This document shows, piece by piece, positions 14,259 to 20,538 of a DNA stretch of 64,000 nt (position 1 is its first letter; every line of letters begins with the position of its first letter). The position numbers and the translations under genes were made by a program. The DNA comes from Aequorivita soesokkakensis (lineage in GTDB: Bacteria; Bacteroidota; Bacteroidia; Flavobacteriales; Flavobacteriaceae), in contig NZ_LXIE01000001.1 of the NCBI RefSeq assembly GCF_001641085.1, positions 310,001 through 374,000 on the forward strand, given 5' to 3'. Below the pieces are notes generated by a model. It was not told where the DNA came from and made no database searches. It was given only the letters and a program-made list of their open reading frames with translations.

Positions 14259-16667
14259 ATGTCAAAAAGAAGAATTAAAAAAGTAGCGGTAATCGGTTCC
14301 GGAATTATGGGAAGCGGCATAGCCTGCCATTTCGCTAATATTGGCGTGGAAGTGCTTTTGCTGGATATTGTTCCGCGTGAGCTTAATGATGCCGAAAAGA
14401 AAAAAGGACTTACCCTTGAAGATAAAGTGGTGCGAAACCGCATTGTGAACGAAGATTTACAGAAAGCCATTAAAAGCAACCCTGCCCCACTCTATCACAA
14501 GGATTTTGCGAAAAGAATCTCCACCGGAAATTTGGAAGACGATATTTCCAAAGTGAAAACTGCCGACTGGATTATTGAAGTTGTAATTGAACGATTGGAC
14601 ATCAAAAAACAGGTTTTTGAGAATCTTGACAAACACAGAACGCCCGGCACGTTAATTACTTCAAACACTTCGGGTATTCCTATTAAGTTTATGAGTGAAG
14701 GCCGAAGTGAAGATTTTCAAAAGCACTTCTGCGGAACCCACTTTTTCAATCCACCGAGATACTTAAAACTTTTTGAAATCATTCCAGGTCCTAAAACTTC
14801 AACCGAAGTATTAGACTTTTTAAATGGTTATGGTGAAAAATTCCTCGGAAAAACCTCCGTAGTCGCAAAAGATACACCCGCTTTTATAGGAAATAGAATT
14901 GGAATCTTCGGCATCCAAAGTCTTTTTCATCAAGTAAAGGAAATGGGGCTTACAATCGAAGAGGTTGATAAATTGACCGGTCCTGTAATCGGGCGACCAA
15001 AATCCGCAACTTTTAGAACCGTTGACGTTGTTGGTCTAGATACTTTGGTTCACGTTGCAAAAGGAATTTACGATAACGTTCCCGACGATGAAGAACACGG
15101 AATTTTTCAAATTCCAGGCTTCATCGATACGATGATGGAAAAGAAATGGTTGGGAAGCAAAAGCGGACAAGGTTTTTACAAAAAAGTGAAAAATGACGAC
15201 GGTAGTAGTGAAATTCTCTCACTCGACCTCGATTCTTTAGAATATAGAAAAAGCAAAAAAGCATCTTTCGGCACTTTGGAAAAAACAAAATCGGTTGATA
15301 AAGTTACCGATCGTTTCCCAATTCTTATAAAAGGTGAAGACAAAGCTGGCGAATTCTACCGAAAAAACTTCGGGGCGATGTTCGCTTATGTTTCAAAAAG
15401 AATTCCTGAAATAACTGACGAGCTCTACAAGATTGACGATGCAATGAAAGCCGGTTTTGGTTGGGATAATGGCCCATTCGAAATTTGGGATGCCGTTGGC
15501 GTAAAAAAAGGAATTGAATTAATTAAAGATTTAGGAAAAGAACCAGCAGCTTGGGTAAATGAAATGCTTGAAGCTGGTGTTGATTCTTTCTACACTGTAA
15601 AAGACGGAAACACCTATTATTACGATATTCCGCAGAAAAAGCACGTAAAAGTTCCCGGACAGGATTCGTTTATCATTTTGGACAACATTCGTAAAACTTC
15701 CGAAGTTTTTAGAAATAGCGGTGTCGTGGTTGAAGATCTTGGTGATGGAATTTTGAATGTGGAGTTTATAAGTAAAATGAATTCCGTGGGCGGTGATGTT
15801 TTAGCTGGAATCAATAAAGCGATTGATATGGCGGAAAAAGATTACGATGGTTTGGTAATTGCCAACAACGGCAAAAACTTCTCCGTTGGCGCCAATATCG
15901 GAATGATATTTATGATGGCCGTGGAGCAGGAATATGAAGAATTGAATGCCGCAGTAAAATATTTTCAGGATACAAGTATGCGCATTCGCTACTCCTCCAT
16001 TCCCGTTGTGGTTGCTCCGCACGGAATGACTTTGGGCGGTGGTTGCGAGTTTACACTTCACGCAGACCGCGTTGTTGCTGCAGCCGAAAGTTATATTGGC
16101 TTGGTGGAATTTGGCGTTGGGGTGATTCCCGGCGGTGGCGGTTCCAAGGAAATGGCAATGCGCGCAAGTGATTCTTTCAAAAAAGATGATGTTGAATTGA
16201 ACCGACTTCAGGAATATTTCTTGACTATTGGAATGGCGAAGGTTTCTACTTCGGCTTATGAAGCCTATGATACCGGGATTCTTCAAAAAGGAAAAGATAT
16301 TGTAATTGTAAACGAAGCAAGGCAAATTGCCGCTGCAAAAGCTGTTGCAAGGTTTATGGCTGATCAAGGTTATACGAAACCAATTCCGCGAACCGATGTA
16401 AAAGTACTTGGAAAGCAAGCTTTGGGTATGTTCTTGGTTGGAACTGACCAAATGGTTGCAGGAAACTACATCAGCGAGCACGATAAAAAAATCGCAAACA
16501 AGCTCGCCTACGTTATGGCCGGTGGCGATTTGAGTGAAGCAAGCTACGTAAGCGAGCAATATTTGCTTGATTTGGAACGTGAAGCCTTCTTAAGTTTAAC
16601 TGGAGAACGAAAGACTTTGGAAAGACTTCAGCATATGATTCAGAAAGGAAAACCGTTGAGAAATTAG
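14259..16667 (+). CDS. 3-hydroxyacyl-CoA dehydrogenase / enoyl-CoA hydratase fusion
   Basis: This 802-residue enzyme covers the hydration and second oxidation steps of beta-oxidation. The dehydrogenase comes first: the NAD-binding loop is VIGSGIMGSG (G13, G15, G18), the catalytic histidine H161 lies in CGTHFFNPPRYLKLFEI, and two C-terminal 3HCDH domains follow. The crotonase-fold hydratase is at the C terminus (about residues 500-720; FSVGANIGM, APHGMTLGGGCEF and GVGVIPGGGGSKEM). This order (dehydrogenase then hydratase) is the FadN-like arrangement, the reverse of E. coli FadB. Downstream partners are the thiolase and acyl-CoA dehydrogenase. The gap after this gene carries an inverted-repeat-bounded element with its own small gene. 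Confidence 0.93.
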   Translation: MSKRRIKKVAVIGSGIMGSGIACHFANIGVEVLLLDIVPRELNDAEKKKGLTLEDKVVRNRIVNEDLQKAIKSNPAPLYHKDFAKRISTGNLEDDISKVKTADWIIEVVIERLDIKKQVFENLDKHRTPGTLITSNTSGIPIKFMSEGRSEDFQKHFCGTHFFNPPRYLKLFEIIPGPKTSTEVLDFLNGYGEKFLGKTSVVAKDTPAFIGNRIGIFGIQSLFHQVKEMGLTIEEVDKLTGPVIGRPKSATFRTVDVVGLDTLVHVAKGIYDNVPDDEEHGIFQIPGFIDTMMEKKWLGSKSGQGFYKKVKNDDGSSEILSLDLDSLEYRKSKKASFGTLEKTKSVDKVTDRFPILIKGEDKAGEFYRKNFGAMFAYVSKRIPEITDELYKIDDAMKAGFGWDNGPFEIWDAVGVKKGIELIKDLGKEPAAWVNEMLEAGVDSFYTVKDGNTYYYDIPQKKHVKVPGQDSFIILDNIRKTSEVFRNSGVVVEDLGDGILNVEFISKMNSVGGDVLAGINKAIDMAEKDYDGLVIANNGKNFSVGANIGMIFMMAVEQEYEELNAAVKYFQDTSMRIRYSSIPVVVAPHGMTLGGGCEFTLHADRVVAAAESYIGLVEFGVGVIPGGGGSKEMAMRASDSFKKDDVELNRLQEYFLTIGMAKVSTSAYEAYDTGILQKGKDIVIVNEARQIAAAKAVARFMADQGYTKPIPRTDVKVLGKQALGMFLVGTDQMVAGNYISEHDKKIANKLAYVMAGGDLSEASYVSEQYLLDLEREAFLSLTGERKTLERLQHMIQKGKPLRN

Positions 16668-16678
16668 AATTGAGTAGA

Positions 16679-17078
16679 TAGTATTGAGTATTGAGAAAAG
16701 AGTATGCATAAGTTAGAAGATTTAAAGATTTGGAACAAAGCAATGGAAGTTGCTGAAGAAGTCTATCTACTTACAGCAAATTTTCCAAAGGAAGAAAAGT
16801 TTGGATTGATTAGCCAACTTCGAAGTAGTGCAGTTTCAATTCCTTCTAATATTGCAGAAGGGGCAGGAAGAAATACCAATGGTGAATTTAAAAACTTCCT
16901 CGGCATTGCAAACGGTTCATCATATGAGCTTTTTACACAATTATTATTATCAATTAAATTAAAACTTGGTTCAGAATCATTAGTAAATCCAATTTTATCC
17001 AAAGTTATTGAACTACAAAAAATGAGTTATTCATTAATAAAATCGTTAGAAAAATGAGTGTCTCAATACTCAATACTA
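16679..17078 (+). mobile_element. Inverted-repeat-bounded cassette carrying a four-helix-bundle gene (element 1)
   Basis: TAGTATTGAGTATTGAGA at 16679-16696 and its perfect 18-bp inverse at 17061-17078 enclose a single gene (16704-17057). The left arm ends seven bases before that gene's ATG and the right arm starts three bases after its stop. Removing the 400-bp unit would leave 32 bp between the dehydrogenase/hydratase and thiolase genes, a normal operon gap. The layout recalls intervening sequences of 23S rRNA, which also pair terminal inverted repeats with this protein family. Mobility is inferred. No transposase or target duplication was seen. Confidence 0.6.
16704..17057 (+). CDS. Four-helix-bundle protein of the S23/IVP family
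   Basis: This 117-residue all-helical protein begins HKLEDLKIWNKAMEVAEEVY and carries the family signature SQLRSSAVSIPSNIAEGAGR (residues about 38-57), followed by two further amphipathic helices. It belongs to the S23-like/23S-rRNA-intervening-sequence protein family, whose members include the diversity-generating retroelement accessory protein Avd. They form small basic oligomers that may bind nucleic acid; the cellular role is unknown. It lies inside a beta-oxidation operon in the same direction and is bracketed by a perfect 18-bp inverted repeat. A second, clearly different family member occupies the next gap (18313-18684). Confidence 0.88.
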   Translation: MHKLEDLKIWNKAMEVAEEVYLLTANFPKEEKFGLISQLRSSAVSIPSNIAEGAGRNTNGEFKNFLGIANGSSYELFTQLLLSIKLKLGSESLVNPILSKVIELQKMSYSLIKSLEK

Positions 17079-17099
17079 ACATCTAAATACTAAATAAAA

Positions 17100-18287
17100 A
17101 TGAAAACAGCATATATAGTAAAAGCATACAGAACCGCAGTGGGCAAAGCCCCTCGCGGAGTTTTCCGCTTCAAACGCCCTGACGAGTTGGCTGCGGAAAC
17201 CATTAAATATATAATGAACGAATTGCCGCAACTCGACAAAAAAAGAATTGACGACGTAATTGTTGGAAACGCAATGCCTGAAGCTGAACAAGGCTTGAAT
17301 ATGGGCCGATTGATTTCGTTGATGGGTTTGGACATTGTTGATATTCCCGGAATGACGGTTAACCGTTATTGTGCTTCTGGATTGGAAACTATTTCAATTG
17401 CTGCCGCGAAAATCCAAAGTGGAATGGCAGATTGCATTATCGCAGGCGGTGCCGAAAGTATGAGTTATATCCCGATGGGTGGTTACAAACCGGTTCCAGA
17501 TTATAAATTGGCAAAAGAAGGCCACGAAGATTACTACTGGAATATGGGTTTAACTGCGGAAGCAGTTGCAAAAAAATACAACGTTTCCCGAGAAGACCAA
17601 GACGAATTTGCGTACACAAGCCAAATGCGCGCTTTAAGGGCGCAGGATGAAGATAGATTTCAGGATCAAATTGTGCCTATTGAAGTGGAACACACTTTCG
17701 TAAATGATGCTGGAAAAAAAGTAACTGAAACATATACGGTTAATAAAGACGAAGGTCCAAGAAAGGGAACAAATATAGAAGCGCTGTCAAAACTTCGCCC
17801 TGTATTCGCCAATGGTGGAAGCGTTACCGCAGGAAATTCTTCACAAATGAGTGATGGTGCAGCTTTCGCAGTTATTATGAGTGAAGAAATGGTAAAGGAA
17901 TTAAATCTTGAACCCATTGCTAGATTGGTAAGCTTTGCAGCCGTTGGCGTTGAGCCAAAAATTATGGGCATAGGCCCATTATATGCTATTCCAAAAGCAT
18001 TGAAACAAGCTGGATTAAAACAAGACCAAATGGAAATTATAGAGCTAAACGAAGCTTTTGCTTCACAATCGTTGGCTGTAATCCGCGGTCTTGGCTTAGA
18101 TAAAGAAAAAGTCAACGTAAACGGAGGCGCTATCGCTATGGGTCACCCATTGGGTTGCACTGGCGCCAAACTTTCTGTGCAAGTATTTGATGAAATGCGC
18201 AAAAGAAACCTACAAGGAAAATACGGAATGGTGACGATGTGTGTGGGAACCGGGCAAGGTGCTGCGGGGGTTTATGAAATATTTTAA
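17100..18287 (+). CDS. Acetyl-CoA C-acyltransferase (thiolase)
   Basis: This 395-residue thiolase performs the thiolytic final step of beta-oxidation, releasing acetyl-CoA. The active residues are all present: nucleophile C91 (MTVNRYCASGLETI), H349 (NGGAIAMGHPLGCTGA) and C381 (MVTMCVGTGQGAAGVYE). The family loop ELNEAFASQSLAV is also present. Its position directly after the dehydrogenase/hydratase gene and before an acyl-CoA dehydrogenase favours a degradative thiolase (FadA/FadI type) over a biosynthetic acetoacetyl-CoA thiolase. Inverted-repeat cassettes lie on both sides of this gene, so it is separated from each operon partner by a foreign-looking unit. Confidence 0.93.
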   Translation: MKTAYIVKAYRTAVGKAPRGVFRFKRPDELAAETIKYIMNELPQLDKKRIDDVIVGNAMPEAEQGLNMGRLISLMGLDIVDIPGMTVNRYCASGLETISIAAAKIQSGMADCIIAGGAESMSYIPMGGYKPVPDYKLAKEGHEDYYWNMGLTAEAVAKKYNVSREDQDEFAYTSQMRALRAQDEDRFQDQIVPIEVEHTFVNDAGKKVTETYTVNKDEGPRKGTNIEALSKLRPVFANGGSVTAGNSSQMSDGAAFAVIMSEEMVKELNLEPIARLVSFAAVGVEPKIMGIGPLYAIPKALKQAGLKQDQMEIIELNEAFASQSLAVIRGLGLDKEKVNVNGGAIAMGHPLGCTGAKLSVQVFDEMRKRNLQGKYGMVTMCVGTGQGAAGVYEIF

Positions 18288-18291
18288 ATGC

Positions 18292-18709
18292 TGAATTCTA
18301 AATTTTGAATGAATGGAGCCGAAGAAGGAAAATATCATAATTGACAAAACCTTTAAGTTTTCTCTTGATATAATTTCTTTATACAAAAAACTTCAAAATG
18401 AAAAGGAATACATTCTTTCAAAACAACTTTTACGTTCGGCAACCAGTATAGGTGCTAACGTTGAAGAAGCATCGGCAGCCCAGTCGAAAAAGGATTTTAT
18501 AAATAAAATGTCCATCGCTTCTAAGGAGGCACGTGAAACAAAATATTGGCTTAATCTTTTGGACAAGTCTAATTTGACCCAACTCAATATTTCTCCTTTT
18601 TTGACGGAAATAGAACACATAATAAACATTTTGACCAAAATAATAATCACGGCTCAGACCAATTTAAAGAACAATAACATCTAAATTTTCATTCAAAATT
18701 TAGAATTCA
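18292..18709 (+). mobile_element. Inverted-repeat-bounded cassette carrying a four-helix-bundle gene (element 2)
   Basis: A perfect 22-bp inverted repeat (18292-18313, starting TGAATTCTAAATTTTG, and 18688-18709) encloses one gene, 18313-18684. The left arm runs into the A of the gene's ATG, and the right arm begins three bases after the stop. Removal would leave a 21-bp gap between the thiolase and dehydrogenase genes. The arm sequence is unrelated to that of element 1 although the architecture is the same. In RNA the arms could pair and hide the start codon. Confidence 0.6.
18313..18684 (+). CDS. Four-helix-bundle protein, second S23/IVP-type member
   Basis: This 123-residue all-helical protein starts MEPKKENIIIDKTFKFSLDI and has the signature QLLRSATSIGANVEEASAAQ (residues about 38-57), followed by KKDFINKMSIASKEARETKY. 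It is of the TIGR02436-type four-helix-bundle group and related only distantly to the protein at 16704-17057 (the SIPSNIAEG branch). Function is unknown. The start codon lies at the inner edge of a 22-bp inverted repeat, so its translation may depend on whether that repeat folds. Direction and spacing place it in the beta-oxidation transcript. Confidence 0.86.
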   Translation: MEPKKENIIIDKTFKFSLDIISLYKKLQNEKEYILSKQLLRSATSIGANVEEASAAQSKKDFINKMSIASKEARETKYWLNLLDKSNLTQLNISPFLTEIEHIINILTKIIITAQTNLKNNNI

Positions 18710-18726
18710 AAATACAAAATAAAAAA

Positions 18727-20538
18727 ATGGAAACACAAAATAAAAACAATTCTGAATTACTAAGAGGCGGACAATTTCTTGTAAAGGAAACTAAAGCAGA
18801 AGACGTCTTCACCCCAGAAGATTTTTCCGAGGAACAAAAAATGATGCGCGACTCTGTAAAGGAATTTGTAGATCGTGAAATTTGGCCGAATAAAGAACGA
18901 TTTGAGCATAAAGATTATGCGCTAACGGAAGAAATTATGCGCAAAGCTGGCGAACTTGGTCTGCTTGGCGTTGCAGTTCCAGAAGCTTACGGCGGACTAG
19001 GCATGGGCTTCGTAACTACAATGTTGGTTTGCGATTACATTTCGGGCGCAACGGGTTCAATTGCTACTGCTTTTGGTGCACATACAGGTATTGGAACAAT
19101 GCCAATTACTTTATATGGAACTGAGGAACAAATCAAAAAATATGTTCCAAAACTTGCAACTGGTGAATGGTTTGGCGCTTATGCTTTAACAGAACCCGGT
19201 GCGGGAAGCGATGCAAATAGTGGAAAAACAAAAGCCGTTCTTTCCGAAGATGGAAAATATTATTCCATAACCGGACAGAAAATGTGGATTTCAAACGCTG
19301 GATTTTGTAATACTTTTATTGTTTTCGCACGTATTGAAGACGACAAAAATATTACTGGATTTATAGTTGAAAACGATCCTTCAAACGGAATTTCTTTGGG
19401 AGAGGAAGAAAAGAAACTCGGTATCCACTCCTCCTCTACCCGTCAGGTTTTCTTCAGTGACACCAAAGTTCCTGTCGAAAATATGTTGGCCGGTCGTGGC
19501 GACGGATTTAAAATTGCGATGAACGCCTTGAATGTTGGTAGAATAAAATTGGCCGCTGCAAGTCTTGATGCGCAACGTCGCGTAATTTCTACAGCGGTAA
19601 AATATGCCAACGAACGTATTCAGTTTAAAGTGCCTATTTCTTCTTTTGGTGCCATTAAATTGAAATTGGCTGAAATGGCAACGAACGCTTACGTGAGTGA
19701 AAGTGCTAGTTACCGTGCCGGAAAAAATATTGAGGATAGAATTTCAATGCGCGTTGCACAAGGAAATTCGCACCAAGAAGCAGAATTGAAAGGCGTTGAG
19801 GAATACGCTATTGAGTGTTCAATATTAAAAGTAGCGGTTTCTGAAGACATTCAAAATTGCGCTGACGAAGGAATACAGATTTTTGGCGGAATGGGCTTTA
19901 GTGCAGACACTCCAATGGAATCTGCATGGCGCGATGCTCGAATTGCCCGTATTTACGAAGGCACCAACGAAATAAACAGAATGCTCGCCGTGGGAATGCT
20001 TGTGAAAAAAGCAATGAAAGGTCACGTAGATTTATTGAATCCTGCACAGGCTGTGGCTTCGGAATTAATGGGAATTCCTTCTTTTGAAACGCCCGATTAC
20101 TCTGAATTGCTTTCCGAAGAAAAGGCGATGATTGCCAAATTGAAAAAAGTATTTTTAATGGTTGCAGGAAGCGCCGTGCAAAAATATGGTACCGAACTGG
20201 AAGAGCATCAGCAAACATTGATGGCCGCTGCAGATATTTTGATTGAAATCTATATGGCTGAAAGCGGTGTTTTAAGAGCTGAGAAAAACGCAAAACGTTT
20301 TGGTGAAGATGCACAAAAAGAGCAGATTGCAATGTCGCAGCTTTATCTTTACCACGCAGTTGATATTATTACCGTTAAAGCAAAAGAAGCAATTCTTTCC
20401 TTTTCTGAAGGAGATGAGCAACGCGCTATGTTAATGGGACTTAAACGATTCACCAAATATCAAAACATGCCAAATATTGGTGAGTTGCGAAAAACTATTG
20501 CAAATAAAGTAATTTCGGAAAATACATATCCATTTTAA
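18727..20538 (+). CDS. Acyl-CoA dehydrogenase (long form with C-terminal extension)
   Basis: This 603-residue FAD enzyme makes trans-2-enoyl-CoA in the first step of beta-oxidation. Recognised parts are the N-terminal helical domain (FSEEQKMMRDSVKEFVDREI), the FAD/substrate strand region YALTEPGAGSDANSGKTKA with GQKMWISNAGFCNTFIVFA, and the catalytic-base motif RIYEGTNEINR (E411). About 170 residues follow the usual end of the fold, as in very-long-chain (ACADVL-like) dehydrogenases. It is the last gene of the MarR-controlled operon and is followed by a terminator. The electron acceptor would be ETF, which is not encoded in this window. Confidence 0.94.
   Translation: METQNKNNSELLRGGQFLVKETKAEDVFTPEDFSEEQKMMRDSVKEFVDREIWPNKERFEHKDYALTEEIMRKAGELGLLGVAVPEAYGGLGMGFVTTMLVCDYISGATGSIATAFGAHTGIGTMPITLYGTEEQIKKYVPKLATGEWFGAYALTEPGAGSDANSGKTKAVLSEDGKYYSITGQKMWISNAGFCNTFIVFARIEDDKNITGFIVENDPSNGISLGEEEKKLGIHSSSTRQVFFSDTKVPVENMLAGRGDGFKIAMNALNVGRIKLAAASLDAQRRVISTAVKYANERIQFKVPISSFGAIKLKLAEMATNAYVSESASYRAGKNIEDRISMRVAQGNSHQEAELKGVEEYAIECSILKVAVSEDIQNCADEGIQIFGGMGFSADTPMESAWRDARIARIYEGTNEINRMLAVGMLVKKAMKGHVDLLNPAQAVASELMGIPSFETPDYSELLSEEKAMIAKLKKVFLMVAGSAVQKYGTELEEHQQTLMAAADILIEIYMAESGVLRAEKNAKRFGEDAQKEQIAMSQLYLYHAVDIITVKAKEAILSFSEGDEQRAMLMGLKRFTKYQNMPNIGELRKTIANKVISENTYPF

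Follow-up and report, generated by a model that had tools for sequence, protein, structure and literature searches.

In the genome of Aequorivita soesokkakensis, a perfect 22-bp inverted repeat brackets a gene of the four-helix-bundle family PF05635 (IVP, S23p) between a thiolase gene and an acyl-CoA dehydrogenase gene, as can be read directly from the sequence. The arms are degenerate 7-nt tandem repeats, and the cassette is one of many, the same design being found around most of the sampled relatives of the gene and in several bacterial phyla. An IVS-type cassette has already been described in 23S rRNA, and we lean towards reading the present one as such a cassette, an IVP gene within two inverted runs of 7-nt repeats, that here lies in a gap of a protein-coding operon and its mRNA.

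The cassette and its companion in the preceding gap

The features described in this section are all on the forward strand of the window, the whole stretch of 64,000 nt that was analysed. The cassette follows the thiolase gene (17100-18287; PF00108 and PF02803) and precedes the acyl-CoA dehydrogenase gene (18727-20538; PF02771, PF02770 and PF00441). Its left arm, 18292-18313, is TGAATTCTAAATTTTGAATGAA and its right arm, 18688-18709, is TTCATTCAAAATTTAGAATTCA. In the repeat search these perfect cores could be extended to 18280-18313 and 18688-18721, 34 nt with 88% complementarity, and the element is 442 nt from arm to arm. The outer part of the left arm overlaps the stop codon of the thiolase gene and its final base is the A of the IVP start codon; at the right arm, a lag-7 array at 18691-18726 stops at the ATG of the downstream gene. 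With the thiolase stop codon ending at 18287 and the following ATG at 18727, 4 + 17 = 21 bp would be left without the cassette. The first-pass annotation had claimed both this gap and the perfect 22-bp arms, and the sequence bears it out; in five of 29 Aequorivita loci compared, the gap between the two genes is 18-26 bp. No T run was seen by eye after the right arm. In the predicted RNA fold of 18270-18735 the arms are paired, with -99 kcal/mol as compared to -69.8 ± 5.5 kcal/mol in 100 shuffles (z -5.3).

The enclosed ORF, which we named IVPb (18313-18684, 123 aa), matches PF05635 (E 4.5e-26, 91.6 bits, curated cut-off 33.8) and TIGR02436 (105.9 bits, cut-off 24) in profile searches, and its nearest solved structure is 2rld (E 1.4e-26). 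PADLOC gave a weak match of IVPb to Cmr1 (E 0.0032), which was taken as chance.

The preceding gap holds a companion unit, 16664-17093, with arms of 33 nt that are 85% complementary. The left arm (16664-16696), made of TATTGAG heptads, starts where the 3-hydroxyacyl-CoA dehydrogenase gene (14259-16667) has its stop codon. It is followed by a PF05635 gene that we named IVPa (16704-17057, 117 aa, E 1.8e-36) and by the right arm (17061-17093, CTCAATA on this strand), with a lag-7 array at 17062-17106. IVPa and IVPb are 22% identical in alignment and their best solved relatives differ, that of IVPa being 2gsc (E 5e-20); 2gsc and 2rld have five chains each. The two units are thus real and independent cassettes of one design with proteins of different subfamilies, as had been proposed earlier. 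Their arm sequences, said to be unrelated, are so letter by letter, yet both consist of runs of approximately 7-nt repeats.

Arms around PF05635 genes

In a sample of family genes that is biased to strong matches and to two thiolase-operon gaps, a flank test found arms with a score of at least 14 at 93 of 144 family genes, as compared to 3 of 372 other genes of the Aequorivita genome. At a score of at least 16 the counts were 71/144 and 2/372, and in the non-redundant set 54 of 83 family genes scored at least 14. The family loci were the best-scoring search matches, 60 positions in list order and the PF05635 genes of thiolase-operon loci; their 182 frames came down to 152 without identical contexts, and eight at contig edges were set aside. 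The Aequorivita genome itself has nine PF05635 genes, and eight of them have arms above all 20 shuffles, the sole exception being L006, with 22 against a shuffle maximum of 23. A 464-kb sample of this genome has 20 inverted repeats with a score of at least 16. Four have 300-450 nt inside, and all four enclose a PF05635 gene, which none of the other 16 does. The earlier argument that the two units in one operon are not there by chance is strengthened by these four and by the counts at the higher score.

Four of the nine PF05635 genes are clustered within 11 kb (G000:C28:6859-17709, in L159). Two inverted repeats in L161, 6656-7474 and 17419-17978, enclose 767 and 506 nt without a family gene.

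Each of the 28 genus genomes searched, that of the window included, has 5-21 PF05635 genes, and at least one was found in 157 of 198 Bacteroidota genomes. Among the 30 best-scoring loci of a Bacteroidota sample, arms were seen in 16 and arrays in 19 (33 frames, three second frames having neither).

Plasmid members of the family were taken from Cyanobacteriota, Gemmatimonadota, Pseudomonadota, Spirochaetota, Chloroflexota, Bacteroidota and Bacillota. Arms scoring at least 14 were present at 20 of 22 plasmid loci (10/10 in one set and 10/12 in the other), a count made without plasmid control genes on 14 of 28 and 8 of 25 rows, picked by coverage and by breadth of taxa. At 20 of the 22, too, a repeat array lies on one side or both, with 8-nt units in the case of Gemmatirosa. 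The Bacillota locus has an array on one side and no arms, and at L315, where the gene is unannotated and its frame is only 35 aa, the arm test is unreliable. The plasmid genes run with both annotated neighbours in 13 of 22 cases and against both in five (L305, L309, L314, L320 and L321); two are mixed and two are not annotated. On two Nostoc plasmids, arm words recur away from the gene's own arms in one only. A comparison of IVPa with phage records gave no match.

Eight plasmid IVP genes (L304, L306, L310, L314, L315, L317, L321 and L322) lie between defence or DNA-metabolism genes: cas6/cas4 twice, cas10/cmr3, cas2/cas1, two ribonucleotide reductase genes, hsdS/hsdR, and DUF1156/Swt1-HEPN twice. 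Two of the eight, L314 and L321, run against both neighbours. The plasmid record of L314 (W02) has a second inverted pair of GGGAACA heptad arrays, 178581-178607 and 179007-179047, about 400 nt apart, which is the spacing of an IVP cassette.

The arms as heptad arrays

The period of the arms was measured on the 48 of 54 non-redundant arms that are at least 20 nt long. The lag-7 self-match of left arms was 0.603, as compared to 0.332 when shuffled (z 24.6), and lag 14 was raised as well (z 17.5). Lags 8 and 16 were slightly raised (z 3.9 and 2.5), the remaining lags from 2 to 18 were lowered, and the right arms behaved like the left ones. With a 99% shuffle threshold, arrays were found at 63 of the 83 non-redundant genes upstream, at 61 downstream, at 71 on either side and at 53 on both. 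When thresholds were set per lag for the same genes, lag 7 gave 56 arrays upstream and 56 downstream, as compared to 0-12 per side for other lags. The arrays mostly have 3-7 units, with a mode of five upstream and four downstream. In the inward direction the arms are rich in G and poor in C, and they are built of subfamily words such as TATTGAG, AGACNTN, GACNTAN and CAAGAGC. Between the two arms, G-U mismatches (45) are not in excess over A-C mismatches (44), which gives no hint that sense-RNA pairing as such is under selection.

The likeness of arms between loci was compared for all 66 IVP frames of the two thiolase-operon gaps. Below 45% protein identity, right arms of different loci are at background, 6.2-7.0, and at 55-65% they are alike (12.6 in the upstream gap and 8.4 in the downstream gap). 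The likeness rises to 13.4 and 12.3 at 65-80% identity and to 27.2 and 20.5 at 80-97%. The match between an element's own left and right arms is 12-15 at every protein distance, but a match across elements is found only for close proteins, which implies that matching arms persist as the word drifts. For 324 pairs at 55-97% identity, own minus cross was +2.25 on average, with 219 positive and 84 negative, but these pairs share loci and are not independent, so that no probability can be derived from them. In whole gap sets, which mix subfamilies, own and cross matches were 11.9 and 8.3 (n=30) and 12.5 and 8.2 (n=23), none of 5000 permutations being as high, and a third set with n=4 gave 16.6 and 13.7 (p 0.08). 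In 12 loci picked for TATTGAG-like arms the two were equal, 14.3 and 14.4 (p 0.50). The right arms of 9 picked TATTGAG-like loci, two of them from Kordia, scored 16.6 as compared to 6.6 when shuffled, which is partly circular by the picking; our claim is based on the unpicked comparison of all 66 frames, where own again exceeds cross.

For pairs at non-orthologous sites, in counts that reuse loci, the fraction that shares arms was printed as 0.00 below 50% protein identity and was 0.04 of 247 at 50-60%, 0.24 of 29 at 60-70% and 0.50 of 30 at 70-80%. The sole such pair above 80%, L183 and L025 (81%), has unrelated arms. Five IVPb orthologues, compared by eye, have one change in both arms and three in one arm only. 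Down to about 55% protein identity, relatives appear to have their word in common, and below this it drifts to background, while each element's own arms stay matched. The dependence on identity suggests that the word is a property of the subfamily, but one that drifts or gets replaced, and that the two arms follow each other. The earlier idea that structure is selected and not sequence thus holds in part: matching arms persist while the word drifts, but the word is also kept within the subfamily, arms being alike already at 55-65% protein identity.

The same gaps in relatives

Across 107 loci, each readable gap is either empty, or carries an IVP gene of the same or another subfamily, or carries a hairpin without a gene. 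The IVPb cassette is present in five Aequorivita genomes, including that of the window, and has a broken frame at L145; the thiolase of the nearest named loci is 94-95% identical. Relatives of IVPb with 66-67% identity occur in Kordia (L081) and in a Flavobacterium MAG (L108). In the five empty gaps of 18-26 bp, neither a counterpart of the arms nor a target duplication was seen by eye, and no exact junction of an insertion could be read. All 66 IVP frames in the gaps of the thiolase operon are co-directional with the operon, in a count where a broken gene can appear twice. In the genus and operon loci, both neighbours are co-directional for 134 of 141 classified family genes, as compared to 184 of 351 control triplets.

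Gaps without a gene resemble the cassettes beside them. In the 37 loci left of 40 when the near-duplicates L083, L127 and L133 had been dropped, the gene-less gap matches the flanks of the neighbouring IVP gap with a mean of 13.4, as compared to 10.05 for other loci (0 of 10,000 permutations), and matches of at least 11 were found in 20 of 37 own pairs and 336 of 1332 cross pairs. In the Aequorivita genome, heptads are also found with no family gene near. A hairpin with TATTGAG heptads, the type of the companion cassette, lies at G000:C23:101814-101868 (L231, between ORFs 1-1491 and 1564-2439), where we read the surrounding genes from their translations as atpA and atpG. Single TATTGAG arrays with at most one mismatch lie at C30:16486-16515 and C45:88536-88558 and are read as adjoining an ATG. 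With at most two mismatches TATTGAG gave 18 matches as compared to 15 for the reversed control, and hence only the nine with at most one were used. The IVPb arms were found nowhere else in the Aequorivita genome with at most two mismatches; with three, there were 25 matches, as compared to five for the reversed control.

In the 464-kb sample there are 25 heptad arrays, lag 14 giving 8 and the other lags from 4 to 13 giving 0-7. This sample has six family genes, and six of the 25 arrays are no more than 40 nt away from one of them; the other 19 are not. The first-pass annotation would have seen its reading refuted if the arms were ordinary intergenic repeats, found genome-wide without the gene. 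Half of this applies, since the 19 arrays are not beside a family gene but the IVPb arms recur nowhere in the genome with at most two mismatches. Five genomes with 11-17 family genes had six lag-7 segments in 300 kb, four of them outside long ORFs, and seven genomes with 0-4 family genes had none in 420 kb, a weak contrast since lag 8 yields four in the first set and kinship is not corrected for.

Three gene-less hairpins of the Aequorivita genome (L152:9114-9281, L158:17489-17536 and L161:13234-13292) have AATTCCA-like heptads, and by eye similar ones lie beside L006, the gene with weak arms of its own. In the gap downstream of the thiolase gene at L126, a unit of about 105 bp, a heptad hairpin without a gene, is present as a tandem duplicate.

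Comparison with known systems

The 23S rRNA IVS of Coxiella burnetii is, in the available part of its description (PMC4990558), 428-444 nt long, with a 28-bp terminal stem and an S23p ORF in the loop. Upstream of the ORF are three tandem GACAGAT heptamers and one degenerate copy, in a number that varies between strains, and RNase III cuts within the stem (PMC4990558). As far as that text goes, the IVPb cassette shares with it the name of the protein family, the size (442 nt, for an IVP-family ORF in an element of about 430-440 nt), terminal inverted repeats capable of forming a stem with the ORF in its loop, an ORF co-directional with the host transcript, and heptamers upstream of the ORF, a trait that is reported for one species and is no formal criterion. 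With protein family, size, stem and heptamers in common, the cassette looks like an IVS in an mRNA operon. It differs in that its host transcript is a protein-coding operon, and in that the genome has nine family genes, eight with arms and each with its own heptads. As it lies between the thiolase and acyl-CoA dehydrogenase genes, and not in a 23S (or 16S) rRNA gene, we file it as IVS-like and not as an rRNA IVS.

Heptamers have also been described apart from this family. In Xanthomonas and Nostoc, GGGAATC and GGGGA(C/T)T repeats have 7-nt units, preferably four, and form inverted pairs (70 in Xcc and 75 in Xac), mostly between co-directional ORFs, with the G-rich strand in sense just past a stop codon or in antisense just ahead of a start codon (PMC4692102, accessible text). 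They share this geometry with the IVP arms, but are described there as G-quadruplex repeats without a gene, and the terms S23, four helix and intervening are absent from the same text. The TAACTGA repeats of Beggiatoaceae, cyanobacteria and Bacteroidetes are intergenic and near start codons, some of them inside operons; their unit is 7 nt as in the IVP arms, but they are direct repeats of one sequence, and the text at hand (PMC4679880) likewise lacks the terms S23, intervening and four helix. A search of the literature that left most subscription journals outside its full-text reach gave no report linking S23p/IVP genes with heptad arms in general.

IVPa has a remote similarity to NCBIfam Avd (E 1.7e-4, 21.8 bits, under the cut-off of 80), and homology of 4DWL and 2GSC has been suggested in the part of PMC10053308 at hand. 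Avd is an accessory protein of diversity-generating retroelements, but the profile search found no reverse transcriptase (PF00078) in the Aequorivita genome, and such a retroelement was rejected. Reverse transcriptase and Y1 transposase (PF01797, not found in the genome either) were also rejected as mobilisers. The IVPb cassette has no transposase in cis, and in the genome the search for transposases covered the Y1 family (PF01797).

Discussion

If the cassette is an IVS-type element of an mRNA, the operon would be transcribed through it, and the heptad arms would pair as a stem, its loop holding the IVP gene. This stem could then be cut by RNase III or another double-strand RNase, which would free the piece from the mRNA, and an insertion between cistrons would be tolerated. 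The solved relatives of the IVP protein crystallise with five chains, and the protein may recognise the heptads of its own subfamily, which would tie it to its own arms and to those gene-less hairpins whose heptads are the same. Both the cassettes and their gene-less versions may have spread to new operon gaps. In favour of this reading we counted the protein family, the arms and their period of 7, the direction of the genes with the operon, the predicted RNA stem, the arms that stay matched as words drift, the gene-less gaps with matching heptads, the plasmid members with arms, and the Coxiella IVS. Against it we counted the lack of a wobble excess, the equal own and cross matches in the TATTGAG subset, the changes in one arm only, the five of 22 plasmid genes in antisense, the lack of a readable insertion junction or target duplication, and the location outside rRNA.

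More tentatively, and with the feeling that it could well be wrong, we propose that the heptad arrays are a recognition code of the IVP family, with one 7-nt unit per protomer of a pentamer and a word of its own for each subfamily. The heptamers of Xanthomonas, Nostoc, Beggiatoaceae and other bacteria would then be gene-less sites or footprints. Recognition by a pentamer would explain the shared words, the arrays of near four to five units, and the matching gene-less sites. The structure 2gsc is that of the product of the gene XCC0516, XCC standing for the same Xanthomonas strain as in the heptamer study.

It is also conceivable, but in our view rather unlikely, that the protein is a post-transcriptional regulator, whose ring binds heptad arrays at start and stop codons with one heptad per subunit, similar to TRAP, and so tunes translation or stability of the operon mRNA, the gene-less hairpins being other targets. 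TRAP binds triplets. The arms do abut stop and start codons, and the same heptads recur in gene-less gaps of the same operon, in the putative atpA-atpG gap and in the two single arrays read as next to an ATG; the modes of five and four units, the five chains of 2gsc and 2rld, and the words common within subfamilies would fit as well. Many relatives, however, have the same gap without a cassette, and the neighbouring genes vary widely between cassettes. The cassette could also be a DNA element without a transposase, its arms being terminal inverted repeats for an enzyme acting in trans and the gene-less hairpins miniature derivatives. In its favour, presence is patchy, with different subfamilies in one gap, gene-less copies do exist, the arm sequence partly travels with the protein, and five of 22 plasmid copies run against their neighbours. 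We nevertheless think this improbable, as all 66 frames in the thiolase operon have one direction, no target duplication is seen at the compared gaps, and neither PF00078 nor PF01797, the two families covered by the search, was found in the genome.

There is little to recommend the view that polymerase slippage makes intergenic 7-nt repeats and that their association with IVP genes is incidental. An earlier study, which proposed slippage, reported heptanucleotides as the commonest repeats of 5-11 nt in most of its genomes (cited in PMC4679880, as far as that text is available), and in 464 kb, 19 of the 25 arrays have no IVP gene beside them. The other six are, though, and slippage alone does not yield matched inverted arrays, words common within a subfamily, or arms around plasmid members of other phyla. 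Least credible of all is that each cassette copies its arms from the target site or gains them at insertion, as the first-pass annotation had offered as one option. Arms do differ between most cassettes, and even L183 and L025 have nothing in common in theirs, but the five empty gaps have no counterpart of the arms, at unrelated sites arms are shared more often the closer the proteins are (by 15 of the 30 non-orthologous pairs with 70-80% identity), and members of one subfamily have similar arms in different genera.

More than 25 years after the discovery of IVS elements, what they and S23p do and where they come from was described as unclear (PMC4990558, in the part available), and bacterial heptamer repeats are described without an agreed origin in the accessible texts of PMC4692102 and PMC4679880. 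If the two are linked, as loci from several phyla indicate, both can be put to the test, and the design of the cassette may help to explain why bacterial genomes have their puzzling seven-letter repeats. The link further suggests that many genes whose only annotation is 'four helix bundle protein' belong to small cassettes in housekeeping and defence operons.
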